Shown one piece after another: positions 4,598 through 36,819 of a stretch of 64,000 bases of DNA. Below the pieces are notes generated by a model. That model saw nothing but the letters and a program-made list of their open reading frames with translations, had not been told where the DNA came from and made no database searches. This DNA is from Ostrinia nubilalis (Eukaryota > Arthropoda > Insecta > Lepidoptera > Crambidae): positions 6,210,001-6,274,000 of the forward strand of contig NC_087095.1 of assembly GCF_963855985.1 (NCBI RefSeq), read 5' to 3'. Positions within the stretch are counted from its first letter, which is position 1. Every line of letters starts with the position of its first letter. Made by a program: the position numbers and the translations under genes.

Positions 4598-7567
4598 ATG
4601 GATAGCTTTGATACGCTTAAAGAACTCGATCAGATACAGCTCTCAGAATCACTCAAATGTAATATACAGGATTTAAAAATAAATTCTGACAATTCTACAC
4701 ATAATTTCATAGTTTTAACACAAAATATTAGAAGTATATACAAAAATTTTAATGACTTACAGCTTACATTGGCACAACTGAAATATGAATTCGATATTTT
4801 AATTTTAACGGAATGTTGGCTAAACCCTAACAAAAATATACCGCAATTAGAACATTACAAATCCTTCCAAACAAAACATCATAATAACCAAAGTGACGGG
4901 GTAGTCGCTTACACTAAAAATAGTCTATCAGTAAAATTTAAGGAGCTAAAACTTGCAAATGCTACCGGAATCGAATTACAAATCTTAAATTATACAATAC
5001 TAGGTATTTACCGCTCCCCTTCGTTTTTAAACGCAGGTAACTTTATTACATCTCTCAATAATCATTTTGAAAACACCGCCCCTCACAAAAATGTATTAAT
5101 TTTAGGTGATATCAATTTTGATTTAATTATTTCCCCAATTGAAACAAATCAAGAACGAACAAATAGATTACATTATTTGAACATGTTATCACTGCATGGA
5201 CTTTCAGCGGCTCATAACTTACCAACGAGGGGAGACGGCTGCCTTGATCATGTCTTTTTAAGAGTAGATAAAGGGAGCAACACGACTTTTACTGCGGTTT
5301 TAAATACAACAGTAACTGACCACTGCCTTGTTCTTTTGTCAATCATAAATAAATATCAACAAACGACACCTCAAAAATATAAAACCGTAGTTAACTATGG
5401 TAATGCTTGTAAGAGTCTGGTAGATGTTGACGTCTCCTTCTTTAATGTTTTTAAAGATCCTGATACGTATGCCTTTGCACTAATAGAGATGGTAAGGTCG
5501 GCTATCCTATCAAACACTAAAAAACTAATTGTTACGAATAGCAAAAGAACCATAAAACCCTGGATTACCACAGGTGCATTACGGTGTATTAGATTGAGAA
5601 ACACTATTTACTTAAAACTAAAATCAAACCCCCAAAATGAAATCCTAAAGATAACTTATAGACGCTATCGTACTTTCTGCGGGAACCTTGTTAAGAAACT
5701 AAAAACTAAGTACAACAAGGACAAAATCAAAACATCGTCACATAACCCCCGAGCCCTTTGGTCAGCCATTAATGACATCACACATTATAAGCCTCCCAAG
5801 AGCCCAAATGATGACCTACTTAATTTAAAATCATGTCCACAAACTTCAATCAATCATGTAAACAAATACTTTGTAAACATTGGACAAAAACTTGCTGAGA
5901 ACATCTCGAATACCATCGAACCCTCAGAGTCATGTAATGCAGACAACTATCATCACCTGTCCTCTTTTGTATTATTAGATACCTCTCACAAGGAAGTGGA
6001 AAGTATTCTGATGTCATTGGACTCTAAGAGTGCACCAGGCTGGGACGGAATCCCTACCCACTTTCTAAAACTCACTAAGGATATTCTCGTTCCTCTCATT
6101 AGTAACCTTGCCAACCTGTGTTTTAAGACGGGAATCTTCCCATATCTTTTTAAGCGTTCCATAGTTACTCCTGTGTATAAGAGTGGAGATAGCGACGACG
6201 TCAACAACTATCGACCCATCTCTGTGTTGACTTCGATCTCTAAAATCATTGAGAAACTATTAAACTCTAGAATAGTGAGCTACTTGACCAAGTACAATAT
6301 TTTATCTACCTCTCAATATGGGTTTAGAAAAGGAATGTCGACACAGGATGCTATCACGGATCTCACATCTGTCATAACAAAAGAAATAGATAAGGGTAAT
6401 AAATGCCTCGCGGTCTTTCTTGACCTCAAGAAAGCCTTCGACACCGTCTCTATCTCCATTCTTATACGTAGGCTGGAGAGTATCGGATTCCGTGGATCTG
6501 CTCTTTCCCTTCTCAGCAGTTATCTTCAAAACAGAAAGCAGGGTGTAAAAATCGTCAACTTTCTGAGTGACGAAGAGAATGTTACGTTTGGTGTCCCTCA
6601 GGGCAGTGTTCTCGGCCCGACGCTCTTTTTGATATATATTAATAATCTTTGCAACCTCAATAACGTCGGGGGGAGGATACTGTCCTATGCGGATGACACC
6701 GCCATTATTTTCACAGCTAAGACCTGGGATGAAGTTAGGTTGAAAGCCGAGAGGGGACTAGCCAGAGTAGGTCAATGGTTAAGTAAAAATCTCCTTACCC
6801 TTAACGCCCAAAAAACGAACTACGTATGTTTTTCTCCTTACATAAATTCACAGCCTTTACCTGACTTTGAAATTAAAATCCACTCCTGTGGGGAACCTCA
6901 AAACCCGGGTTTATCCGTCCTTAACATTTGTAATTGCCCTAAAATTCAGAAAGTTTCCAATGTTAAATATCTCGGAATTATTGTAGATCAGCGATTGAGT
7001 TGGTATTCACACTTAGAACTAACAATAGCGAGGGTAAGGAAACTCATGTGGGTTTTCAAATCTCTGAGGCATGTCATGTGTACCGCACTACTGAACAAAA
7101 TATATATCGCACTAGCTCAGTCCGTAATAACCTATTGCATCCCAGTATGGGGAGGAGCAGCGAAGTCATATTTTATAGAATTAGAACGAGCTCAGAGGTC
7201 CCTGATTAAGGTAATGTACTGTAAGCCCTTTAGATTCTCTACCGATGCCCTATATAAAACCTCTAAACTACTTACTGTCAGGAAACTATATATTTTGCAT
7301 TTGACACTAAGATATCATAAAACGCTACCTCTTGATAATGCTAAACTCAGTAAAAGAAGGTGCGATATCGTGGCCCCTATCTATCCTTCGCGAACTGTCT
7401 TTGCCACTCGGCAAAACTTATCCCAAGCCCCCCACGTTTATAATAAAATTAATCGCATTCTTAATATTTACCCCAAGTTACTGTTTGAGTGTAAGAAATG
7501 TCTCACTGATTCGCTTTTTACACTCGATTACGTTGAGGTGGAAAATATTTTCGTAAGAATTAGTTGA
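4598..7567 (+). CDS. LINE ORF2: APE-type endonuclease and reverse transcriptase
   Basis: 989 residues. The EEP endonuclease spans about 35-250, with N43 (TQNIRSI), E72 (LTECW), GDINFD (D171, N173), LDH (D217) and the terminal TDH (D241, H242) all present. RT spans about 470-770, with SAPGWDGIP, NYRPIS, QYGFRKGMST, FLDLKKAFDTV, PQGSVLGP and the catalytic YADD at 697-700. Between the palm and KYLG lies a segment with HSCG and CNC cysteines, also found in the second LINE of the window. The enzyme would nick chromosomal DNA and prime cDNA synthesis from it. All catalytic residues are intact, so the copy may be functional. Confidence 0.95.
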   Translation: MDSFDTLKELDQIQLSESLKCNIQDLKINSDNSTHNFIVLTQNIRSIYKNFNDLQLTLAQLKYEFDILILTECWLNPNKNIPQLEHYKSFQTKHHNNQSDGVVAYTKNSLSVKFKELKLANATGIELQILNYTILGIYRSPSFLNAGNFITSLNNHFENTAPHKNVLILGDINFDLIISPIETNQERTNRLHYLNMLSLHGLSAAHNLPTRGDGCLDHVFLRVDKGSNTTFTAVLNTTVTDHCLVLLSIINKYQQTTPQKYKTVVNYGNACKSLVDVDVSFFNVFKDPDTYAFALIEMVRSAILSNTKKLIVTNSKRTIKPWITTGALRCIRLRNTIYLKLKSNPQNEILKITYRRYRTFCGNLVKKLKTKYNKDKIKTSSHNPRALWSAINDITHYKPPKSPNDDLLNLKSCPQTSINHVNKYFVNIGQKLAENISNTIEPSESCNADNYHHLSSFVLLDTSHKEVESILMSLDSKSAPGWDGIPTHFLKLTKDILVPLISNLANLCFKTGIFPYLFKRSIVTPVYKSGDSDDVNNYRPISVLTSISKIIEKLLNSRIVSYLTKYNILSTSQYGFRKGMSTQDAITDLTSVITKEIDKGNKCLAVFLDLKKAFDTVSISILIRRLESIGFRGSALSLLSSYLQNRKQGVKIVNFLSDEENVTFGVPQGSVLGPTLFLIYINNLCNLNNVGGRILSYADDTAIIFTAKTWDEVRLKAERGLARVGQWLSKNLLTLNAQKTNYVCFSPYINSQPLPDFEIKIHSCGEPQNPGLSVLNICNCPKIQKVSNVKYLGIIVDQRLSWYSHLELTIARVRKLMWVFKSLRHVMCTALLNKIYIALAQSVITYCIPVWGGAAKSYFIELERAQRSLIKVMYCKPFRFSTDALYKTSKLLTVRKLYILHLTLRYHKTLPLDNAKLSKRRCDIVAPIYPSRTVFATRQNLSQAPHVYNKINRILNIYPKLLFECKKCLTDSLFTLDYVEVENIFVRIS

Positions 7568-9555: not shown

Positions 9556-10135
9556 AAAGGACATCATCCATTTTGGTCCAAAATCAAAAGTGCCGGCCAA
9601 AAAATAAAAGTGCTGTATTCTGATAGAATACTAATATAGTTCTAAAAATATATGAAACGACTGACTTTGATCTCAAATACTACGACGTACAGTGGTGCTA
9701 CAGCTTTGGTGTCATAGTAACAAATGCTAAGGCGGACGTATTCTGTCAGAATACAGCACTATTTTTTTTATTAGCCGACATTTTTGATTTTGAACAAAAA
9801 ATGTATGAATAGTCGATGAATTTTAGATCTCAAATACTCGACGCACAGTGGTGCTACAGCTTTGGTGCCATAGTAACAAATGCTAAGGCGAACGTATTCT
9901 GTCAGAAGACAGCACTTTTTTTTATTGGCCGACACTTTTGATTTTGAACAAAAAATGTATGAATAGTCGATGACTTTTAGATCTCAAATACTCGACGCAC
10001 AGTGGAGCTACGGCTTTGGTGCCATAGTAACAAATGCTAAGGCAGACGTATTCTGTCAGAATACAGCACTTTTTTTTGTTGGCCGGCACTTTTGACTTTG
10101 GACCAAAAATATATGAAACGTGGATGATGTCCTTT
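9556..10135. mobile_element. TIR element with internal 155-bp triplication
   Basis: The ends AAAGGACATCATCCA and TGGATGATGTCCTTT are exact inverts, and the similarity continues inward through GTGCCGGCCAA and TGCTGTATTCTGA. Inside, a unit of about 155 bp holding ACAGTGGTGCTACAGCTTTG is present three times (marker at 9689, 9845, 9999). No coding capacity. Confidence 0.85.
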
Positions 10136-12412: not shown

Positions 12413-13365
12413 ATTTTTTATCGGTCTCTTTAAACGCTATTCCAACAACTGTGTGTTCTAGATTTATGTGTCACAAAAGCAAACTAGGTACTGATACGAG
12501 GTTACCTTACAAAGAAAGTAAGGATTATTTATTATAATGGGACATCACAAAGGCTATATTAATATATTCACGCTAGCTAGCACAAGTTAAAAGGAAAATA
12601 TAAAAGAGCAAACTGAACGCAATCGCGGTGCCGCCCATCGGAAACCTCCCTCGGCATTATGGTGACCTTTATAAAGAACTTTGACAACCTACAGACTGCC
12701 TAACCCTTACTATGTTTTCTACTTCTTTATAATACTCGTATTAGTTTAGATGTGACCTGAACACACAGACACCAGACTGTCACTAAAATGCCCGCGTTTG
12801 ATAAAGTACGGCCTCAGTTGAAGTCCTTTCAATAAAATGAAAAAGGGTTGACGAAAAATCTGTTGAAAAAGTGATACCCATTGACTTGTCATTTTTGGGA
12901 AAAATTGTGAACATTTTTAGCGGAAAAATTATTAAAATTGACAGCTTTTAAAAAACAAAATATACAATATCCAGTTTGAAGATATTTACACCGTTTGCAT
13001 ACAAAGCGAAGTCATTGTTTTAATGTGTCATCTTTTCTGTGCATGATCTCTATATTACAGTCAAAGATTCAACTAATATCAAAAGTGTAATAGCTCTGTA
13101 AAGATCTTCAGAAATACATGGTCGGTTTAACACGTACTATTAATAAACTAAGTTGTGAAGATATAATTTCAAACATGACGCTTGTACACAATTCGAAGTT
13201 TGGATCTTGAATTGGCAACTTGAATCAGTCTGATTGTCAATTTTGTAAATTAACTCCGTCCTTTGTATATTCCATGAGCCATACAAGCCGCCTTTGCCTG
13301 TTTATTAAGTGTGTTATACCTCCTACAATCTAGCGCTCACATTATAAGTATTTGTTTGTTACAGG

Positions 13366-13424
13366 CCTTTCAACATAGAGCCAAGGACAGTCTTCGTGGG
13401 AAAAATGTGACATTGTCACCTCGC
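13366..13424 (+). other. Probable 5' UTR part of RYa-R first coding exon
   Basis: The sequence tttgtttgttacag ends at 13365 and looks like a 3' splice acceptor, so this exon probably begins at 13366 and an upstream 5' UTR exon exists outside what I can identify. The frame stays open back through the acceptor. There is no in-frame ATG before 13425, and an out-of-frame ATG directly followed by TGA lies near 13405, a minimal upstream ORF. If an upstream exon carries an ATG in frame, the protein would be longer at its N terminus. Confidence 0.55.
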
Positions 13425-14077
13425 ATGATGCACTACACCAGCGACCCTACTTCTGGGGCTGATGTTCAGATACCCGCGTGCGTGACGACCGACTGTCTCC
13501 ACCATGGGGGAATCGAGTGGGGAGGCAACGAGACTCACACCAACCACTCCTGGGCTCAGCACGGCCTGGTCTGCGTGTTCGAGTCGTCGACGGAGGACTT
13601 TATCGGCTCCCCCTTCTTCCAAATGTGTATCTACTTCATGTACAGTGCAGTGTTTATCGTAGCTCTCTTAGGAAACGGGTTAGTGTGTTTCGTAGTCCAC
13701 ACAACCCCGCGTATGAAGACTGTAACGAATTTTTTCATAGTGAATTTAGCTGTCGGTGATATTTTTATGACGCTGTTTTGCGTGCCGTTTTCGTTTGTGC
13801 CAATGTTGGTGTTGCGGTACTGGCCTTTTGGGGAGGTTATGTGTAAGATAGTGAACTACTCGCAGACTGTGTCTGTGTTGGTGAGTGCGTATACGTTGCT
13901 GGCGATATCGATTGATCGGTATATGGCGATCATGCACCCGCTGAAGCCGCGGCTGGGGCGGGCGGCGGCCAAGATGATAGTGGCGGCGGTGTGGGTCGGT
14001 GCGTTAGCCACTGCCGCCCCTATACCCATTGTATCGCAGCTGCAAAGACCGTCGCCGTGGCACGAAGCCTGCGAAGT
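13425..14077 (+). CDS. RYa-R: RYa-R coding exon 1 (N terminus to TM4 and start of extracellular loop 2)
   Basis: Encodes residues 1-217 plus two bases of codon 218. The start is the first of two consecutive in-frame ATGs; its context (ctcgc) is weak. The extracellular N terminus (about 1-64) has glycosylation motifs and four cysteines. TM1 about 65-92, TM2 101-128, TM3 137-168 with DRYMAIM, TM4 182-204. The donor is GT|GTGAGT at 14078, a strong consensus, phase 2. The exon is GC-richer than its flanks, as expected of coding sequence here. Confidence 0.93.
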
Positions 14078-17000
14078 GTGAGTAATATTGTCCTACATAA
14101 AAATATTTAAAAATTGGAGCAATATCTGATCATTCATTGAGAGCCCAGAGATCACTGAAAGACACAGAGATTCATAAACACTTTTATGCAACTGAGCATA
14201 AAAGCAAACTTAACCTACGAATAGTTCATCAAATCTTGAAGGCTTCGTGTTTCTTTGTATTTTTATCATCCGTCATGAAAACATTACTGAATTAATTTGC
14301 AATAAAGGCAAAGACGATAATAATATTTTGAATAGCTTGACAAAGATTTGGGTGAGCCTCAAAGCCTTGGACCAATAAACATTATGAGGCAAACAGATTA
14401 ATTCGGTCGATCAAACAAATGTTTGTATTTTCTACTATTACACAATGTTATGAATGGCCATTCTATTTCATTTTTACCTGTTGGCAATCGGACTAATCTA
14501 GGCCATTAAATCAATACAAAAACAGCGATGAAAAATGAGACATATGAGACAAAAAACACAGCTTATAATAGTACCTATCACCTTATTGTAAATTATCTCT
14601 ATTTCATAATAAGTACGTACACTGTAAATGAGACGACGTGACAATCAGGGCCGGATTAACCATCTCGGGGCCCCTAGGCACAGCTCGTTTTGGGCCCCCC
14701 TTTTTTATGTCGCGGAAGAAATGCTTTGCGCACCGTCACCACTGCCGGGGGACAGGGTGGTGTGTGGGACTCAAAAGGACGGGGTGTACCAACTAAAACC
14801 TTCGCGGCGTTCCGTTATCGCCCAAGTGGGGGTGTCGCGAGTGTCCGGCCGTAGCCTTAGACTTCTGCGACACCACCGGCGACAGCTCGCCTACACGGCG
14901 GACCCTACACGCCCACCTTGTGGGGGTCCGACGGGAATGGCCCGAAACGCCAAGCCGTTCCCGTCAGACGGAGGTGACAAGGGTGCCCCCGCACCCCCGG
15001 CCTGCTGGCCGCCACCTGGAGGGAGAGTAGAACGGTCGTACAACCGCATTCTCCACCCCCTTTTCCGCCTCCGGAGCGATGAGGCGAGAGGATCGTACTT
15101 CCCCTCGCGCTCCGCTGCCTCTTTCTGAAGGATGACCTCTTCGTAAAAGGAGGCGACCGCCATCCAGCATCCTTCACTTCCCAGCATGGCGTTGACCAGG
15201 CTCGGAAGCGAAAGATCCCGGCCCACGATCGCAGTGAGGACACGGCGCTACTCCTCCCAGCACAGCGGGGATTGCTCTCGCCCGATCCTATGCAGGTACG
15301 AACCGAAGCAGTCGTGCCCGAGGAACGTGAGGAACCCGTGCGGTCGTTCCAACTATTGGTCCAGAACAGGACCAATGGCGTCCAGATTGCGGCGGCCAAA
15401 CTGCGCGCGAGTCATGTCTTCCTTCCAGCGGTCGATCATGATCTCGCGCTCTTCCTGCCTGACGGCGCCGCGCCGCTCCGGGGCCGGGCGCTTTCCACGC
15501 GCCTTCTGGTCTGCCATCCAGTGATAGATGACAGACAAGATTCCAGCTTCTAGCTCCCAGTGAGGAGTACCAGCGAGGACGCACGCCGCAGAGTGCCCTA
15601 CCGTTCGGTAGATCCTTGCGACTTTCTCCCTCTTGTTGAGTGCGTCCGCCCAGATTGAGGCGCCATACAGCGCCATGCTCCTCAGAACGCCGGCATAAAG
15701 TCGACGAAACCTCGTTTGTGGCCCTCCCAAATTTGGGAGAGCCAACTCAGTGCGCCGGCTGCCTTGAGGAGGCGTGGCGCTAGCCCGTTGAAATGCGGGC
15801 TAAAATGCCACCTCCCGTCAAGCGTGAGGCCCAGATATTTCATCTTTGACGTCAATCCTAACGTCCTCAATCACAATGTCGGCGTCGGGAGGGCCCGGAA
15901 AGAAGAGGGCCTCAGTCTTCTCCAGCGCGACTTTCAGGCCGAGGCGTCGTATTCTGCGAGCGACTAATGTGCCGCCCGGCGACGCCAGCCGTGCCGCGGC
16001 TCCAAATGTCTTCCCCCGGGCAGTAACCAGAGTGTCATCCGCATAGCATATGAAACTCATGCCCGCGAGAAGGACGCCCCGGAGGAGCCAGTTGAAACCT
16101 AGGTTCCACAAGAGTGGACCGAGCACCGAAACCTGCGGAACCCCGCTGGCTACGCCGCGCCGTTAGAGCTGGCTGTCTCTGTTAACATACAGGACTTCGC
16201 GATTCCGTAAGTAATCGGCCAGCAGCGGTCGAAGGTACTGACACTGAGAGGCACTCTGTGATGTTGAAGTGCCTAGAGTATGGTGGAATGAGGGATGGTA
16301 TTGAAAGCGTTGGCTATATCGAATAATACAGCCAACACACCCTCAGTCACCCCTCTCCCTAGCCTCCGCAGTGAGGCTTTTTAGCCTCTGAAGGGTGTCG
16401 ACGGTCGACCTGTCATGTAAACCAAAGCAGTAAGTAATATGCCAACGTTACGAAAATGAATTAGGTTCCACAACATCGAAATAATTATGACGATTGAATG
16501 TGTAAACCAAAATAAGACGAAGTTTTAAGGTGGTTTGAGTTTTGCTACATAAAAATGATCTTTAACATTTTTTTTCATTTTTTAATCGGGAGTGCTGGGC
16601 CCCTGGTCATAGTGGGCCCCTAGGCACTGGCCTAAAGTGCCTTATGGATAATACGGCACTGGTGACAATGTAACATTATTTTAATGAGGGCTCTTTGCAC
16701 CATAATTTCGGATTCACTTGCATTCGTACGTGACTATTTGCAAAGATAAATCAACATTATTCAGTTGAATTCATTTGGGAGGTCACTAATTTGTGAACCA
16801 GCGTTCTTAACGAGCAGTAACACGTAAGCGCTACTGGCCCTACAGATAAATCAGAGATAATTTACCATAAGTCTCTCAATCTTAATAAAACTATTTCTTT
16901 TAAATTATCAAATTTGCAGTGAGCAGTGGTCTAGCGTACAACATAGCGAGCAGTATACGTGCGCGCTATTGGCGCTACAGATTAATCCCAGTGATTTCAT

Positions 17001-20000
17001 TTACCATACATCAATCTCAACTGGACTCTTCTTTTGTATGTTAGGGACATTTGCAGCGAGCAGTGGTCTAGCGCGCAGCTCAGCGAGCAGTACACGTGTG
17101 CGCTATTGGCGCTACAGTTCGCGCTACCGCTGACCGCGCTAGTGTGCACATACGCGCGGATAGCGCACGTCGTGTGGGGAGGCCGCCCGCCTGGAGAGGC
17201 GCAGACGCTACGCGACTCGAGGATGCAGCATTCGAAGCGGAAAGTTAGTAATAAGTTACATAATTTGCATAATTTATATTACAACCTGTTGGTTGCCAGA
17301 TGCAACAACAATTCCAATATGAAAAGGAGCCTCTAGAAATAGATTTTCTATTATGCCTAGTTTCTCTGAGCTGAAAGTGTTAACGATAATACTAAACAAG
17401 CCTTTACTTAGTGGCTTAAGCTTTGCAGTAACGGCTAGACTCGTGGCAAACAGTAGGTACCTACCTTTAAATTCATTACGAATCGGTTAACACCATTTTC
17501 TGCATTACACTGAAATTAGGTAGTTCAGCTTAACGGTTACTATTGTATGAATGTGTGGCTTAATATCACACAGTGGTGTTCTTTCATTCGTTTGTGTTCT
17601 TTAGAATAATTTTATGAAATAAGCTAATTTACTAACAAGAGCGTCTGTCCAAAAGGGGCTATTTCCACTGGATGTGTAATGAAATTATTATTACAAAGAT
17701 TCTGGTTAAAAATGGTAAATGCTAATATTGGTCGATCTAAGTTGTGTAGAGATAGATAGATATAAATAGTTTATTAAAACAAAAAAAAACACAAAAAGCA
17801 ACAAAAAACACATTTAGGTAGGTACTTAAGTAACAAAAAAAGTTAGAGGTAAAAAACTGTGCCAACAGGCTCAGCATTTGCTCGAAAGGGCATGTCACGA
17901 AGCTGGTCTTCCACGGACGCCCTTGCTTATTTTTGATTAACTGAGTCTGTTAACAGAGATGTTTTTCGATTTACTGAGTCTGTTTACAGTCAAAATATCC
18001 TCTTTTGAACAGACCTCACTGTTACTCTGCAAGTGCAACTACCTTTACCCTTACTTACACCGTCTGTTTGTTTCAGATGATAAAAATGATGGTGACGGTG
18101 GTGGCGGTGTTTACAATCTGCTGGCTGCCGCTCAACGTTTTCATCGTAAGTTGTACATGACGTCTTATGTTACCTAGATGTCAAGGTAAAGGTCGAAAGG
18201 ACAGGTCACATTTTCTAAGCTTACCAATCTGGTCATAATTTCCATAATAAGCTAGGTACAGCTTCGAACTTTTTCCATTTTCTTATGGTTAACTTTGTTG
18301 CGGTTGATATGATAATTTCACTTAGCCTTGAAACAAACTTAGCGTTTACTGTTTTGATTTTATTTGCAATCAAGTAGATTCTGGTTTAACAGGAATTGCA
18401 GAGGTGACGTAAGAAAGAGACAGAGAGAATAGTAGAATCAAAGATAGAGAGGAAAAGTCTAGATAATAAAATGCATTAATTCCAAAAACAGTAACTATTT
18501 ATCAAGGCATGCAAAATGTAATATTTATGAAATGGCAACATTGCTTTAAATTATTTTGGTAAAATGAGAAATTATAATGGTATTCATTAAACAACGGTTT
18601 ATAATATTTCGTTTCAATTAGCTCCAAAATACACTCAGCGGCACGGAATTTGGCCCAAGCCTAAACAACCATATATGAGGTCAAATAGGTGTTGTATACA
18701 TAAGTTTCGTGTGACATGTTAACAGAAAATTTTTTTTGTTAGTTTAAGAGGCTAGATTAATAAAAAAATGCGTCTGTTTAACTTTTTTGACTCTAGAAAC
18801 GCATTTCGTTGTTGGAGCGTAAAGAGTACGGGTAAGCTTAAATTCGATATTAAATGTTGTAAAGGATTGGCATTTTGTTTTTTGTTTTTAAATTAATCTT
18901 AGGGTTATTCTCGTCTCCATAATTTGAGAATAATGTCCATTACTTCAGCTCAAGTTGCTCAAATAGTGTTGCTTAGAAGTCAAGGGCGTATGCAGCGGGA
19001 GATGGCTGAAACTTTCAATTTATGGCGTACAAACTTAAGATACACATTAAAAAGGCATGACCAGACCGCCTTTTACACAAGAAGACCAAGAAGTGGGGAA
19101 TTAAGGTGTAAATCAGCGCGCGATGACCCGATTATCGTGCTTGCAATATCAAGAAATCGGGTTCTGACTACGTTTGAGATACGCCAGCGTTTACAAACAG
19201 CAAGCCCAGTGAATGTCAGTGAGCACACAATAAGAAGAAGGATGGAGGATCATAACCTGCATACTCGAAGACCATCTCGAGGACCAGAACTTCTCCGATA
19301 CCTTCGCGAAGTGCGACTTACGTTTTCTAGAGAACATGTAAATTGTACGTTAGACTAATGGAGTAAAATCTTTATGAAAACTGTCTGTTTGCGTAGTAAC
19401 TCTTCTCCGCACCTTCTCTATACACTTCCACGGCCGTCTGGAGCTCTTAAGGTGACTCTGCAATCATCGATCCATAGAACTTTACTCCATTAGCCTTGCG
19501 TCCAATTTGGATGTTCTCTGGAAAACGTAAGTCGCACTTCGCAGAGGTATCGGAGAAGTTATGGTCCTCGAGCTGGTCTTCGAGTATGCAGGTTATGATC
19601 CTCCATCCTTCTTCTTATTGTGTGCTCACTGACATTCACTGGGCTTGCTGTTTGTAAACGCTGGCGTATCTCAAACGTAGTGAGAACCCGATTTCTTGAT
19701 ATTGCAAGCACGATTATCGGGTCATCGCGCGCTGATTTACTCCTTAATTCCCCACTTCTTGGTCTTCTTATGTAAAAGGCGGTCTGGTCATGCCTTTTTA
19801 ACGTGTATCTTAAGTTTGTACGCCATAAATTGAAAGTTTCAGCCATCTCCCGCTGCATACGCCCTTGACTTCTAAGCAACACTATTTGAGTAACTTGAGC
19901 TGAAGTAATGGACGTTATTCTAAAATTATGGAAACAAGAATAACCCTAAGATTAATTTAAAAACAAAAAACAAAACGCCAAACCCTTACAACATTTAATA

Positions 20001-23000
20001 TCGAATTTAAACTTACCCGTACTCTTTACGCTCCAACAACGAAATGCGTTTCTAGAGTCAAAAAAGTTAAACAGACGCATTTTTTTATTAATCTAGCCTC
20101 TTAAACTAACAAAAACAAATGTTCTGTTAACATGTCACACGAAACTTAGGTATACAACACCTATTTGACCTCATATCTGGTTGTTTAGGCTTGGGCCAAA
20201 TTCCGTGCCGCTGAGTGTATTTGGTAGCGAAAATTTTGCTCAATTTGATTGCGACTGTGAATTAAAACAAAATATATTAATGGGAATTTCTGTTATGAAA
20301 ACGTTCTAAAATAGATCAAAGTAAAATACATAATAAATATTACGGGTGTCAAAATTTAAGTTTCCACGTATGTTATTTACTGTAATACATATTATTAATG
20401 TAGATAAAAAAATAACTGTGAAATTGCTTCATATTCTCCTAAGAAATCTTGTTGAACAATCCTAATGTTGTAGTGATGATAGATTGCAATTTTGCAACAA
20501 AATTGTCTGATGTTCAATCGTCTGTACTTGCCAATATTTTGGCATGATACACCCTTAAAACGTCATAATCACCGGGAGGGAAAACAATTTAATAGTTCAT
20601 TGGTCAAGAAATCGAGGCTGTTTCCCCAGCGGACAGGCGGAATTGACGAGAACGAAAGAGGGAACATTTTCGGAAAAAATTCAGACGGCGCAGCGACGTC
20701 ATCTCAAGCTAAATTCTGCCATATCTTTTAATACTTAGGTGATATTTTTAAACAAAAATACATTATAATCCAATGTGTTGTCGACTGTACTTTTGTAGGC
20801 AGAACAAATTAGTCATGATGACATGGTTTTATACTAATAATTAACACAGACATTAATTGGGTTACTTTTTATGGACTGTCATAACGTTGTTTCACATAAA
20901 GTTTATTTGGGAACACCCACGTCATAGAGTTACTTAAAGGGTTTGTTTTTCAGAGTCACGGCTTCATGCTTTTATCGATTAGGTATAAATTATAATTACC
21001 TAAACTAAACCGAAGTACTTTATAATACTATCCAAAAGTACAGCCGTTGAGAATAACATAAAATCATAAAATCGACGGGTTCATCCAGTGTCTAAGTAGA
21101 TGGAAGAGCAGTCAAAGCAAAAGGTCGTGGGTCGATTCCCGCCTTAGGCAGTTCGATTTTTCAAGTTATTTTCAAATTAGTTTGAGATGCAATTCTTAAC
21201 GCTAAAAATTAAATAACTAAATACTAACTATAGTGAAATGAAATTATTCACAGAGTGACTGTATTGCTATTTGCGTGAATCAGCAGTCAAGTTTGAAGCC
21301 CGTTTGTTCTGAATTTCTAATCTGAATAGATTGTATAAGGGGGTTGCGATGTTTCAGAGCTATTCTGGGACTTTGGCAAACAGTTCGGACAAACTACAAC
21401 GCATAAATTGACTTTATAGGACTTGCTTTGATGGGGAAATCCATTGAAAGAACTTTTCTCTTGAAACTTCATGACAAAATGACGCACTTTGGGATATAAT
21501 ACTGCTTTATTTAGTTTAATTATGATGTAATGAAATCTCTTTTATGATTATCGAATTGAGTAAGTATGTATAAGATTAACGTAAGTATTTTTAGTGGAAT
21601 TACGGCAAACTTGTACCCTAATGCCCCTAACAAAGCAGCTTTGCGAGAACTTAAGTCACGCACGAAACGAGTGTGGGTGTTTCAGAAATGTATTTCTTAG
21701 GCTGCAGCGAAAGTTCAAGGGTATTGTTAAAAAATATTAAAACGTGTATTTGGTAGTCGCCTGTGTGGGTGTGAAAAAACGATCCATTTCCTTGCCACAC
21801 AAGGGACCGTATTGAACGCATATCCTACACAATAGACTATTTAATTTTTTATGAAGCTATCAGCGAGCTCGCAACATCGCGTATTTGTTAGTTCGAGACT
21901 TGAACTAGAAAACGCGCACTGCTACGAGCTCGCTAGAAGTTAATAAGTTCCAAAAAAACGTCAATGTCACAACTCTCCTTTGTTACAACTCGCCTCGGTC
22001 TCCCCAACTGTAAAACCCCTCCATATAGATTTAATATGGAAAAGACAAGTTATGACGTCGCTTTTTCACACCATACTACTGTCATTGCGCTACTAATTAT
22101 CGAGACCTTTTGGACTGATGCCTTAATTGGCTCATTGAAAGACCCATAAAAATAACGTTATGGCAATAATACACACCCGTTCTTAGCTATAACCATATTT
22201 CGAACGTATTTTCCTCCACTATTGCCGTGTTAACTAGGGGGACTGAAAGAGCGAATCCGTGACATTTATTGAAGAAATGGGCCATTTCAAGACCTGTGTC
22301 CAAGATATTAGTTAATATCATTTGATTTCAAGTTAATTTAATTCGATTTCACATAAAATTAACAAAAATGTCTCATACAAGAACTAATATTTAAAATACC
22401 TATGTAGCCTGTACCTGGTTCTGAAACTAAAATACTCCGAAACTAAGATGTTCACTATTTCAGGCATATCCAAATGAAAATAGACAAAGTCTCATTACAG
22501 CATCGGGCGAACTTGATAAAAAAGCACAAAACTCTTCAGAGTAAACCAGATACTTGTTAATGCTAGATAATAGGCACTGAAATCGGATTTAAATCTGATA
22601 CGCAGTTAACTATGTACCCAGAATCCTGAAATGAACCTTGTGTGAGCTATACCTAAGCAATTAATTCTAATTGAACGAAATAGTTCCAGTGAAATCAGCC
22701 TATGTCCATTTTAATCAAATTTTCATTTACTTGCAATTATGATTGCGCTTCATTACTCATTTTCACGAATTTTAAATTAAGTAGGTTCCTACCTGTACTT
22801 GAAACATTCGAATTAAAATTCTTAAATTTTAGTTTGAAAACGGCACAGTTGAACAATTTAGATAACTAATTCAATAATAAATCAATACCTAGATAGATAC
22901 TACATTACCAGTTTTGTTTGTTATTTGCAAGCTGACATGTAGGAATTTATAGCATTCAGGATTTCCTCTTCCTCGACCCGCCAAAAATGCGGGCCTTTCA

Positions 23001-26000
23001 CTATTCCAACAAATTGTATTCGCCCACCCAATAATAATGCACGAAGACAAATCCTGGGACTGTAAGAATTATTTTACTTGGAGGCTTAGAGCAGCGGACT
23101 GTGGGCCTCGAGTAAAAGTGGTTGATTCTATCAATGGCTTTATTCCTGTTATAAGTCAAAGTCAAAATTTCTTTATTTAAATACTTTATTTTAATAGTAG
23201 GTACTTACAAATCGTCAAATAATTTGCTCTTAAGGAGTCTCTACACGTCTCATAATCTTTTTACCCTACCAGCGCTTCGAGACCAAGATTTGGCAAGTGC
23301 TGAGAAGAAGCGCCGCAACAAACTCAGCCACCACTGTCCGACGATTGATATAAATAAATATGTTACGGTTAATGTGATAAATTGAAAATTATTAATAATA
23401 ACCGGTTATTATGAATAATTCCCGACAGTCGCGGTAAAAGTGATAAATTAATCACATTTAACAGTGATTATTTAATAATTCAGCCTTAGTACTAACAAAT
23501 TTCATAAAAGAGAACAACATCTTGTGTACGTGTTCGTGTACAGCCAAAATTTTGAACGTTTTGATATCATATATTAATATAATTTGACATAATGAGTTTG
23601 GAATGTTTCTTGCATAATATTACTTTTCCATGATGCCTATAACATAATGTTTTGATTTAAAGTGAAAAATAGGTTAAGGTGCGGCGGGGGTGGCCCTTGG
23701 GCCACCCCTAAGCCGCCTATTTAGTTTTATACACACATAAATGACCTCATATTAATCACATTTACCAAATCATGCGGTAATTATTCATAATAACCGGCGA
23801 TTATTCATAATTTTCACATTTATCACTTTGACCGTAACAACTACATAGAAATAGCAGAAGTAGGTACATGATTCAGGAGCAGTTCTCTGAAATTACCACT
23901 GAAAGTAAAATCTTTACATTTTTCCAAAAATAACCATTAGACGTCACACCAGTATACCTACTCGTAGTTTGTACATTTAACTGGCATGAGTTTTGTGCGA
24001 CAATAAGCTTTATGCTAAATGATTTTTTAACAGCATCACCTCTGAAGGTCAGTAGGTAGGGACACTTTTTATAAAGGTCAGATATGACGTAGAGAGGCTT
24101 GGAATAAGATATATCGAAAGGGATTGGGATCCATTTGTTACATTTGATCGTCCTATCACAACGATCTGGATGGGGAATGTAATAATATCCTTGCTTCATA
24201 ACATACAATTGTCATTTATTAGCACTTACTAATCTAGATGATATCAATTTGTGGTGACAGAGTAAAGCAGCGTGACAGTCAACAAATTGAACAGTGAACA
24301 AGCTGTACAATTGTTCTACATAATTATAACAACATTCCGCACTTCGTAGGGCATGCAATTTGGTCCGATTGAGCCAATTATATGGCTGTCTAATGACAAC
24401 TACATGGCGGATACCAGGGTTGTAAGCTAAGTTATAAATAACACACACCATATAGAAGAAGAAGAAGCATATCTTCGTTCATACGTTCAACCAAATGACT
24501 TCCACTGCCAGACAAAGGCCTTCCCCAAGGATTTCCACAATTACCGGTCCTGCGCTGCCCGCATTTGGAAGAATGTACTAATAAAACTTTATGTAAATGA
24601 TGCAATTCTGTATAGGTAATGTCGCCTCCCAGTAATAAAGATTCTTCTTCTTGATTTCTTTAGAGTTAAAAGTTGTTCTTTTTATAGGTTCTGTGGACAG
24701 CTCACGAGAACGATGAAGAATGGGCGTCGTGGCCGGGCATGCCGTACGTGTGGTTCGCGAGCCACTGGCTGGCCATGTCGCACTCCTGCTACAACCCCAT
24801 CATATACTGCTACATGAACAACAAATATAGGAGAGGCTTCAAACAGGTAAATTCCCTATTCTTCATCTAATAAATAGGTACTCATTATAATCATCGTCAT
24901 TTCAGCCATAAATAATGTAAAAAAATACATTTCAGAAATTATGTAATGTTCAAAAATCGACTGCCTGAAATGGTACTGAGGGCCTAGTGTGAGTTTTCAT
25001 CAAACGCGCTCACTAGTGAGCGCGTCAAAAAATTACATTAAAATGTATGACGGATTGTACAGCGCCCCTAGCGGGAAACGTTCAAAAACTAAAATTTTCA
25101 TCTAGTGAGCGCGTTTGATGTAAACTCACACTAAGCCCACTGAATCCGTCTGATAAATATGTCAAAATTTTCAAGTGTCTTCTACGCTGTGTGTGAAGAT
25201 ATCTATAACCTTTAAACTTTAACCCTCGTATAAATAAAAAAAAAACCTTATAAATTGATTTCCTTTTACAGGTGTCTTTTGTTCTCATTTGGGTAATAAA
25301 ACAAAAGACAAATACCCAAGCGCGCGAAAACAGAATAGTGACAGACAGAAAAACAAAATAGAAACGTGTTGTGACATTTATGGTCTGTGTACAAAAATTA
25401 ACGGCCTTGGGTGTCTCCAAAACAGCCGGAATTATTTTTTATAAATATTTTAGTCGTAGCTGCCAATGTTATTTTTTCAAATAAAGAAAAAAATTCTCTT
25501 GAAACATAAATTCGATTAATTTGAAACATAAATTCGATTATTTAGCCGGAAAATGCTGTATATTTTTACGAACCTCGAATACCAATAACCCATGATCGGT
25601 GTGTTTATTTATCGCGATAAAAATATTATTGGCTGATCGTAGCCATTCATTACAGGAATCGGTTGAAAATTTTCCAAATTTGCCGAATTTCGATTACACG
25701 TTATCTCCAAAATGAAACCCGATATGTACAAATGTACCTACATATTAAGTACTCGTACATGCACGTACGTACACACACACGTACTTGAAAACTGACTGTT
25801 TGGAATCAGTAATAAAACCTTTTTAAATTAATTTAATTAGGTATGCAACGCGACAGTTTAAAATTAAGTAATAAAAGTGATTGCAATATTTCTTACACCG
25901 TATTTATTTGACCAAAGCTCTGAAACAATAACGCTCAATACAGTAAAAAGTCTATTTTAATGATAGCGTACCTACCTATATCCTAGTGGAAAACCGACGA

Positions 26001-32000: not shown

Positions 32001-34289
32001 ATTTTATACAGTCCACTCTTTTCATTTATTAACTTCCACTACACTCACTATCGAAGTAACAACTATACTATTTGTACTACATACATGTTTTATACGTTAA
32101 TTAAAAGTCCTAAAATTACACAATGAGCCAAGAAAAATTTATGAAAATTAAATGGGAGCCATTTTTTTATGCAGTACTTAGCAGGTATTTAGTGAGTTGC
32201 AGTCTAGGATGATACTTACCTGCCGTGTGAGTGCCTATTCTCTCTCGCCTTGAAAAGACCCGGATTATAGACTCGGGAAAGACTTCAGTAAGCAGTGAAT
32301 TCCAGTCCCTAGCTGTTCCCATAAAAAGAGCTAGAAAAACGTTTTTCTTGTGATGTTTCTCACGCACAGTGACAAGGAAATAATTGTGTACAAATTCGAC
32401 TTGCACTTGGCCCGTTTTTAATAGGATTTCTTTGTGGCAGGCCCTCGGCGGATGCCTGTGTTTGAAATTCAACGACGCGAGCCGGTCGTACCAGCGCGAG
32501 CGTTCCAGCGTTTGCGAAGGGGTGCCGCTGTCGGGTAAAGTAATGATAATTATTTTCTTTTACTATATTATTTTAAGACCGAATCATACAGGGTGTACGA
32601 GACAACTGCCCCGGGGGCCCCCCACATAAAGCTACAAAGGTGACAGTTCTAATTTTGGAATCGCTTTAAAGTCCTGAATGCTTACCATGAGTTTATGATT
32701 ATGTGTTCTCTAGCGACAGCGTAAAAAATGACATGAAAAATGTATGACAAATTGTGACCTTAAAACTGTTATTGTGTAGTAGTCCCCAGAGTAGCCTTTG
32801 TAATAAAGTGCTCATAAAAATTCATAAAATTTCGAAAGCTTAGCGTATGATCACTTTATAAGCTACAATACCTTCTAATATTATAAATGCGAAAGTAACT
32901 GTCAGTTTGTGTCGCTTTCACACCTCAACACTGGGATAGTTTGAGTCCTGGGAAAGGACATATTTTATCCCAGTATTTGAAAAAAAAAATCACGCTTTGG
33001 AAACCGCGGGCAGAAACCTAGTCAATTATAATTGGAACGTTATTATGAAATCGCTTAAAATAACTTTCTTAGAACGAGAACTTACGTCGACTAATCAAAT
33101 ACCTCATAGAATTATTTTAATATTCGATGGTACTCACTGTATAGGCTCATGCTCACGTACACCCTGTATGTTAAATAGAAAATAAATTCTTAGATAGAGA
33201 TCGTTGTCTACGCGAGATAGCTGAAATATTTTGTGATAATAAAAGACGTTCGCTATATTGACGTGTGCCCTTGAAATACAACTTCTGGGAATAAAAAAAA
33301 ACAGGCTAAATGCCAATCACTACAGTTTAAATCCGGTTTACATTGATTTCAGCTGTTCTAAAGATAACCATGAGGAACAAATACTCCTATTTTTGATCGA
33401 TACACTAGCATCTATCACATTTCGTTTTGTTTGGCAACGATTTATCGAAATATTTTTGGTTGAAATCAATTTCTTACATGATTGTGAAGTCTAACTATTA
33501 ATTCTATATTTTCTGTTCTGATAAATAGTCAAAACTTTTATACTTTTATCAAAGTCAGTCCAGTAATTATGCTCGTAGATTGCATTCGTTGCGTAAAGAA
33601 GTAGGTAACAAACATCCATCCATCCTCACTTTCGCGTTTATAGTATTACGACATAATACTAATGTACCAATTACTTTAGGATAAATTAAAAATTCCACAG
33701 AAAGAGCATTTTGTTCTAAGATTAATTTGAGCAAACATTTCAAATATAAGAACCTAGGTATAAATATCAAATTATTATAAATGCTTTAACGTTGTGACTT
33801 CTTTCGCCACAAATTCCTATTTATAAAACCTACCTTTACAAGAACGTAATAAGAAGGCACGTTTAATTTAGTCGAAAAATCTTTTATCTTTAAGAAGCAC
33901 TAGCAGTTCATAAAACAAATTATTTTTAATGTTACTGAAGTTTCTTGGTCAAATTAAAATATTATTACGAGCTAGGCTCAGTTCAAACAAAACTCCTTGT
34001 AACTAAAGTAAGTATTTAATGAAATTTTTACTTTAAAAAGGTAAAGGTTATCGTTATAAAAAGTAATGATCCAAACAGCTTTTTACTTTAGTTAGACTTT
34101 TAGGGTGGATTTTATTTAGTCGTCTATCAACCTTTTATTTGTGCTTAATGTACTATATTAATAAATTTATTCTATACTTATAATAAATCTGTAGAGAGGT
34201 CAATTCTGTACATGAAATATATTTTCAAAATAACTATCAGGGGGTGATTAGTGATCGATACTGATGCCAAAAATGCAATCAGTAAAATT

Positions 34290-34334
<45 letters not shown>

Positions 34335-36819
34335 ATGTTCCTAATAGAAACAAAAACTACTCGACGGATTTTAACGAAACTTGGTACAATTATTCTTCAT
34401 ACTCCTGGGCAGGTTATAGGATACTTAAGAATTCCCACGGGAACGGGCATTAGCGGGAAAATCCTTTTGTATGAAAAATCTAAACCGCTTAAGTTAGACG
34501 TTTGAAATTTGGCAAGCAGGTACCTTAGTAAACTTAAAGCTTAGTTATAACAGGATATTGCAAAATTCCTACGGGAACGGGAATTAGCGAGAAAAAACAT
34601 TTGTATGAAAAAAATTAAGCCGCGTAAGATAGACGCCTGAAATTTGGCATGCAGGTACCTTAGTAAACTTAAAGCTTAGTTATAACAGGATATTGCAAAA
34701 TTCCTACGGGAACGGGAATTAGCGAGAAAAAACATTTGTATGAAAAAATCTAAGCCACGTAAGATAGACGCTTGAAATTTGGCATGCAGGTACCTTAGTA
34801 AATTTAAAGCTTAGTTACAACAGGATATTGCAAAATTCTCACGGGAACGGGAGTTAGCGGGAAAAAACATTTGTATGAAAAACTAAACCGCGTAAGTTAG
34901 ACGCTTAAAATTTGGCATGCAGGTACCTTAGTAAACTTAAAGCTTAGTTACAACAGGATATTGAAAAATTCCCACGGGAACGGGAGTTAGCGGGAAAAAA
35001 CATTTGTATGAAAAAATCTAAACCGCGTAAGATAGTTGAAGGGGGTAAAACGGGATCCACGCGTACGAAGTCGCGGGCGGCCGCTAGTAGGTAATAAATC
35101 TTATAAAAACCTAACATCGGTACATTTTAAATCTAGGACTATGTAACTGAACTTTTTTAACCTATTTTAAGTTTTAATTGTTTAAAAAAGTTCCATCACG
35201 GGGGATTGTTTAAATTTTAAAAGTGATGGGCAGTTGTCCATCACGATAAATAAGTTTATCAAAGCTCTAAGAAAAACAACAAAACTATCGTTACATTTTT
35301 AAGCAATGCACAGGTCCCACTTTCTTGTTTTATTTTCACATCTTTAATCTGAGTCTTGAGTTTGGTATATTTCCAAATAATTGGAAAATCGCCGCCATAT
35401 CACCCATTTTTAAATGTGGTTCGAAAAAAGCACCAGATAATTATCGTCCAATAGCCCTCCTAAGCACTCTTTCTAAGGTTCTTGAAAGGATAGTTAGTAA
35501 TCGCTTAGTACCATTCCTGGAAACAAACAACATCATTTCCGATAGTCAGTTCGGTTTCAGAAAGCACAAATCGACTGAGGACGCGGTGACGCTTCTCACA
35601 AATTTAGTATCTGCCCACGTTGATAATGGCAGGTGTTGCCTAGCGGTGTTCATCGACCTTGCTAAGGCATTTGACACTGTGTCAGTAGGCCTGCTCTTAA
35701 AAAAGCTGGAATCTGTCGGGGTACGAGGAGTCTCGCACAACTGGCTGAAGAGTTACCTAACAAACCGCAGGCAACGTGTAAAAATTGGTGGTCAATTAAG
35801 TTCGGAGCGTCCCATCGACTTTGGAGTTCCTCAGGGTAGCGTCCTTGGGCCTATTCTCTTCAATCTTTACCTGAACGACATACTTAAACTGCAATTGAAA
35901 AACGCTAACCTCATAGCCTATGCAGATGACACAGCTATCTTGTTTCACAGCGACGACTGGAAGAGCGTTTACGCTATTGCTGAGGAGGGTCTCTCCGAGG
36001 TAGCAAAAGCTTTCAATAATAACTTACTTACTATGAATGTCACAAAAACCAAATATTTGGCCTTCTCAAAAACCATTGTGGCTAGCCCACCTGCCTCTTT
36101 GACCCTCCGAGTGCATAGCTGTTCATTGGGACAAAACTCAAACTGTTCTTGTGGCAACATTGATCGCACCTCTACAATGAAGTACCTTGGAGTTACACTG
36201 GACGAAAACTTAACATACAAAACGCATATATCGATACTCTCGGGCCGGGTAAGGAAACTAATCTTTGTTATGAAAAGACTCAGAGACTGTTCCCCGCCAG
36301 ACATTCTTAAAACAGTATATATCTCCCTGTGTCAATCAATCATACAATACTGTATTGCTGTGTGGGGCAGTGCTGGTAAAACCTTCTTCATCCAGCTGGA
36401 GCGAGCTCAACGTGCTCTCATCAAGGTCGCACTGAAGAAACCCTTCCGTTTTCCCACAGACGACCTTTACAGGGAATTTGGCGTACTACGGGTAAGACAA
36501 TTATTTGTCTTATGTGCTATGATCAGGACGCATAGAAGCCTACAATCTCACCCACACTATAAAGACGTTATTTCAAGACGAGTATATAAAGCCCCTCTAC
36601 CGCAGTTGCGTTCTCTGATGTCTCGGCGTAGCCCAGCCTTTTCATTGCCAAACACCTACAACAAATTATGCAAATTGTGCGACCTCAGAGACAAACCCTT
36701 ATCCTTATGCAAAGTAATGACGAAAATGAAGCTTCTAGAATTAAATTACAATGAAACAGAAGATTTAATTTAGCAAAGCACAACACATACGCACATATAA
36801 CACACAACACACACACACA

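Follow-up and report, generated by a model that had tools for sequence, protein, structure and literature searches.

The start of exon 2 of a receptor gene in Ostrinia nubilalis, together with the end of the preceding intron, is tandemly repeated. The repeat lies in a 64,000-nucleotide stretch of contig NC_087095.1 (positions 6,210,001 to 6,274,000, forward strand), hereafter the window, in whose coordinates all features are given. Two head-to-tail copies, the upstream copy B and the functional exon start, copy C, both span the intron end and the exon start, and the repeat is real; a third, decayed copy (A) of the exon start lies further upstream. Very probably, the array originated by a tandem segmental duplication across the intron-exon boundary, and the upstream copies are now intronic, decaying pseudo-exons. 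Of the two readings offered in the initial annotation, slippage or unequal exchange that left pseudo-exons is thus the better supported, and indeed the best-supported of all those considered.

The host gene was identified through its protein product. A rhodopsin-type receptor domain (Pfam PF00001, 7tm_1) was found in 13278–14078 with an E-value of 8.2e-39. Using this domain and a comparison of the spliced product with the Ostrinia furnacalis RYamide receptor-like protein P0001, the first coding exon was placed at 13425–14077 on the forward strand, ending with the phase 2 donor GAAGT|gtgagt and encoding TM1 to TM4, as assigned by position in the receptor family. Exon 2 (17045–17243), exon 3 (18077–18145) and exon 4 (24688–24846), all on the same strand, were placed using the spliced coding sequence and P0001, and the four coding exons joined give an open frame of 360 residues. 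P0001 was the best database match of the spliced coding sequence, listed at 100% identity with full (100%) query coverage; by eye, the window product differs from it by one residue near the N-terminus. Many further proteins matching the window product are RYamide receptors by their source names. Based on the 7tm_1 domain and the best matches to named receptors, the window gene is annotated here as a predicted RYamide receptor, a rhodopsin-like GPCR. The C-terminal part of P0001 was visible by eye in the window open frames 32384–32626 and 51758–52003.

The position of the exon 2 acceptor determines which part of the repeat is coding. Homologous proteins carry Asp-Ile/Val/Leu-Cys at the junction, with the Asp and the Cys invariant in a 24-sequence alignment, and exon 2 of a paralogous receptor gene starts with GGATATTTGCC, preceded by cacag. 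The window reads gttag|GGACATTTGCAG at 17044/17045, and because of the junction residues in the homologues and the start of the paralogue exon 2, the acceptor was assigned to this gttag|GGACATTTGC boundary. Therefore, the TTTGCAG word downstream of it is coding (Ile-Cys-Ser), the real end of intron 1 is 16981–17044, and in the repeated unit 64 bp are intronic and 73 bp exonic, the exonic stretch (17045–17117) being the duplicated part of exon 2 represented by copy C. The initial annotation had correctly extended the unit into the intron; its division into 68 bp of intron and 69 bp of exon is replaced by this one.

Junction lengths across the receptor family were compared in the best 120 of 584 homologues, since counting an exon 2 motif in these 120 proteins was of little use, with 66 of them giving no motif match at all. 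Among the 119 proteins that span the junction, 118 were within two residues of P0001 in length, and the sole exception, longer by 144 residues, was P0002 of Phthorimaea operculella. These protein sequences show the normal junction of the family; of the homologues, only the O. furnacalis protein bears on the use of copy B, since B may be absent from the other species. That deposited protein, P0001, has no extra residues and a normal junction, with the copies skipped.

The self-comparison that had been proposed as a check bore out the repeat. In 16440–17250 the strongest ungapped diagonal was at offset 137 (35/40 identical), followed by offset 135 (30/40). Copies B (16912–16980) and C (17049–17117) were identical at 61 of 69 bases (88%) without gaps and with a period of 137, in agreement with the earlier description of the middle copy as close to the real exon. 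Copy A (16793–16845, forward strand), which was located by alignment to copy B and ends with CCCTACAG, gave 41 identities, 11 mismatches and 4 gap columns against B, and none of 500 shuffles was as good; it is decayed yet related, as had been stated. The spacing from A to B is 135–136, so that the proposed period of 137 over about three copies holds for B and C and not for A and B. Compared as whole units, A with B, A with C and B with C each scored better than all 500 shuffles.

The intron part of the unit is also repeated between B and C. The 66 bp spacer before copy B (16846–16911) is homologous to the intron 1 end: aligned with the 68 bp that precede copy C (16981–17048), it shows 46 identities, 15 mismatches and 12 gap columns. 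The local score was 36, which no shuffle out of 500 attained, although the margin was narrow, the shuffle maximum being 35. The intron half of A, in contrast, showed no significant likeness to that of B and a marginal one to that of C: 334 of 500 shuffles were as good against spacer B and 58 of 500 against spacer C, and in an anchored test, 50 of 60 random intron stretches were as good against B and 4 of 60 against C. Repetition of the intron sequence thus stands for B and C, whereas the intron half of A could not be assigned to the unit.

Copy B has lost the acceptor that it would share with C. It reads TTA, a gap and TC where C has TTAG, so that no AG is left at the true acceptor position in the spacer before it; in A the homologous position cannot be placed. 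What B retains is the TTTGCAG word (to 16919), 12 bases past the true acceptor position in the register of C, which could act as an acceptor. The ttgcag of the middle copy had been described as a retained acceptor-like site; it is not the homologue of the acceptor, as the word corresponds to coding sequence and the AG of the true acceptor is the part that was lost. The remaining description of this 69 bp pseudo-exon was accurate: its frame (ICSEQWSSVQHSEQYTCALLALQ) is open from 16861 to 17130, no donor directly follows it, and, 137 not being a multiple of 3, B and C are in different frames. Both A and B read CTACAG|AT at their 3′ ends, with no donor directly 3′ of either.

These features are consistent with a simple course of events. 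Replication slippage or unequal exchange, acting once or twice and presumably after the split of the two receptor genes, would have duplicated about 137 bp in which the last 64 bp of intron 1 are joined to the first 73 bp of exon 2. The remainder of exon 2, with its donor, follows directly on the last copy only, and therefore only the acceptor at 17044/17045 gives a working receptor. The upstream copies, with no donor after them, would have been absorbed into a longer intron 1 as decaying pseudo-exons, with copy B probably unspliced and its decay probably neutral. That intron and exon sequence are both repeated, at nearly constant spacing, supports the duplication across the boundary.

The state of copy B counts to some degree against this reading, as its exon half seems rather intact for a pseudo-exon under no constraint. 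No indel separates B from C in the exon half, as compared with 7 internal events between the spacers (P = 0.026 in a crude Poisson model with equal rates). Six of the 8 differences between B and C in the 69 bp fall at third codon positions (one-sided binomial, about 0.02), and 7 of 9 do so when the segment is begun one base earlier (P = 0.008). Substitutions were 14/58 in the spacer and 8/69 in the exon part, which is not a significant difference (Fisher P = 0.098). Constraint on C alone would yield part of both the no-indel and the third-position patterns. Besides, the Cys codon is TGT in C and TGC in both B and the paralogue; since the paralogue shares TGC with B, at least one of the B–C differences seems to have arisen in C, and some of them may sit on the C branch. 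Purifying selection on B is not claimed from the third-position pattern, because the tests are weak and constraint on C explains part of it.

Gene conversion between exon 2 and the pseudo-exon, by which B would stay close to C as the spacers diverge, is improbable, if the strongest of the alternatives. It would account for an exon half that is 88% identical and ungapped next to spacers of lower identity with 12 gap columns; the fall of identity at the exon edge is, however, equally expected from constraint on C alone. The comparison of the paralogue with the window gene points the same way, with identical codons at 39/51 in exon 2 and 76/124 in exon 1 (codons 50–217; Fisher P = 0.057), as does a run of 45 identical bases in exon 2 of the two paralogues, which hints at conversion in that exon. 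Yet neither of the conversion contrasts reached P = 0.05.

It is slightly less probable still that copy B acts as a weakly used alternative acceptor that lowers the receptor level. Splicing from 14077 to 16920 would produce a 324-base exon 2 with B in frame, the regular exon 2 out of frame and a stop at 17131–17133, and thus either a shortened protein or a transcript destined for decay. The TTTGCAG of B is the first AG after an AG-free stretch of 47 bases (52 bases at C), no stop codon interrupts the frame between exon 1 and the end of B, and the lack of indels and the mostly third-position differences in B would suit a used acceptor. Against this, B has no AG where the homologous acceptor would be, the pyrimidine fraction before the CAG of B is 0.59 as compared with 0.71 before the acceptor of C, and the tests for conservation of B are weak. 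When the B-spliced product was used as a protein query, none of the 16 candidates had an E-value of 0.001 or below. The more specific proposal, that B has been selected as a poison acceptor diverting transcripts to a frame-shifted, stop-containing exon 2 and so tuning the level of a neuropeptide receptor, would be the less probable of the two. Use of B as a decoy or poison acceptor is conceivable but lacks support: the splicing decoys suggested in the initial annotation received no positive evidence, the O. furnacalis junction being normal and the search with the B product giving nothing at the above threshold.

Chance similarity or an assembly error can practically be dismissed. Against spacer B, the intron half of A scores no better than chance, but nothing favours either explanation for B and C; none of 500 shuffles was as good as the units, and the copies differ at no fewer than 8 of 69 positions, a divergence that duplicating a single sequence in assembly would not produce. 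Two further readings were considered and rejected. As mutually exclusive tandem exons, A and B would cover at most 73 of the 199 bases of exon 2, and they lack donors. Intron gain by tandem duplication requires a GT between the copies, where CTACAG|AT is found, and P0001 has no extra residues.

In a search of the 495 Mb genome in its 52 contigs, which skips simple repeats and very common words, the only match to the array besides itself was exon 2 of the paralogue, and an origin from a dispersed repeat or transposon is unsupported. This paralogue, a second RYamide receptor-like gene (C8:6076971–6078525, in locus L003), is found about 146 kb upstream in the same orientation, and by eye its first two exons match the O. 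nubilalis protein P0012. Its intron 1 showed no significant likeness to the intronic array (132 of 200 shuffles as good), to unit B (109 of 200) or to spacer C (31 of 200); with no trace of the array there, inheritance from the common ancestor of the paralogues is unsupported. The paralogue intron 1 has a direct repeat of its own, 71 bp long, 99% identical and spaced 130 bp (L003:7823–8023).

Tandem arrays of similar period were also found elsewhere in the window, one of 154 bp × 3.0 at 9662–10117 and one of 135 bp × 4.5 at 34430–35035. Three 10 kb stretches around the paralogue contained no array with a period above 21 bp, so that arrays of such period may be rarer than the window suggests; this control is poor, because the same array finder also missed the A-B-C array. 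Other repeats were noted within the receptor gene, namely a 27 bp direct repeat in intron 2 (17930–17989; 89% identical, spaced 33 bp) and an apparent large inverted repeat, seen by eye, in intron 3 (18600–20220). The latter holds two open frames, 18903–19355 on the forward strand and 19562–19945 on the reverse strand, that encode similar proteins, which we take to be transposase-like. The window open frames 4598–7564, 35271–36770 and 15821–16162 (reverse strand) look by eye like reverse transcriptases, presumably of non-LTR elements, and the last of them sits within intron 1 of the receptor gene.

The closest known case is that of the potato RdRp gene, in which, according to the part of the report available to us, a duplication across one intron-exon boundary created a new intron by way of a cryptic GTAAG donor (PMC4974935). 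The duplicated segment there likewise crosses a single intron-exon boundary and carries an intron end; at the moth locus, in contrast, the copies are not followed by a donor, those upstream are intronic and no new intron is evident, so that the moth locus has the same geometry without the new donor (PMC4974935). Copy A contains a donor-like GTAAGC at 16824–16829, where the exon has GTGTGC, which recalls the GTAAG given for potato in the same portion of that report (PMC4974935). With this sequence as its donor, A might serve as a micro-exon. In a Drosophila case, as outlined in the accessible text, exon sequence was tandemly duplicated and one copy then turned into an intron (PMC2891723). The tandem exon duplication with one copy becoming intron is shared with the moth, whereas the Drosophila duplication, on the same partial account, involved a coding part with a proto-splice site and the moth unit brings an existing intron end (PMC2891723). 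The moth locus also fits the class, as far as the source at hand describes it, of partial exon copies lying in an intron of their own gene, which is a class and not a mechanism.

Within the family, the repetition of coding sequence in a conserved GPCR, regarded as unusual in the initial annotation, is not unique. The 587-residue P. operculella protein P0002 carries tandem copies derived from the same exon as the window locus: the later part of exon 2 occurs four times in it, and the three additional copies make up its 144 extra residues. Unlike in the moth locus studied here, these copies come from the later part of the exon and lie inside a protein known as a gene prediction. In two of the three extra copies the first residue is the Phe that follows Leu-Gln; A and B end at the same codon boundary. 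Among the 10 papers listed on the RYamide receptor in Lepidoptera and the 8 on Ostrinia together with RYamide, no title or abstract opening deals with the repeat.

The mutation is of a known kind, an ordinary tandem duplication that changes little by itself, and the extra copies appear to be decaying leftovers in the intron. The locus offers a readable case of a duplicated 3′ splice region, in which the copy attached to the donor works and the upstream copies enter the intron. Together with sister species, it could be used to ask if disabling is required for duplicated acceptors, and in which order it proceeds.
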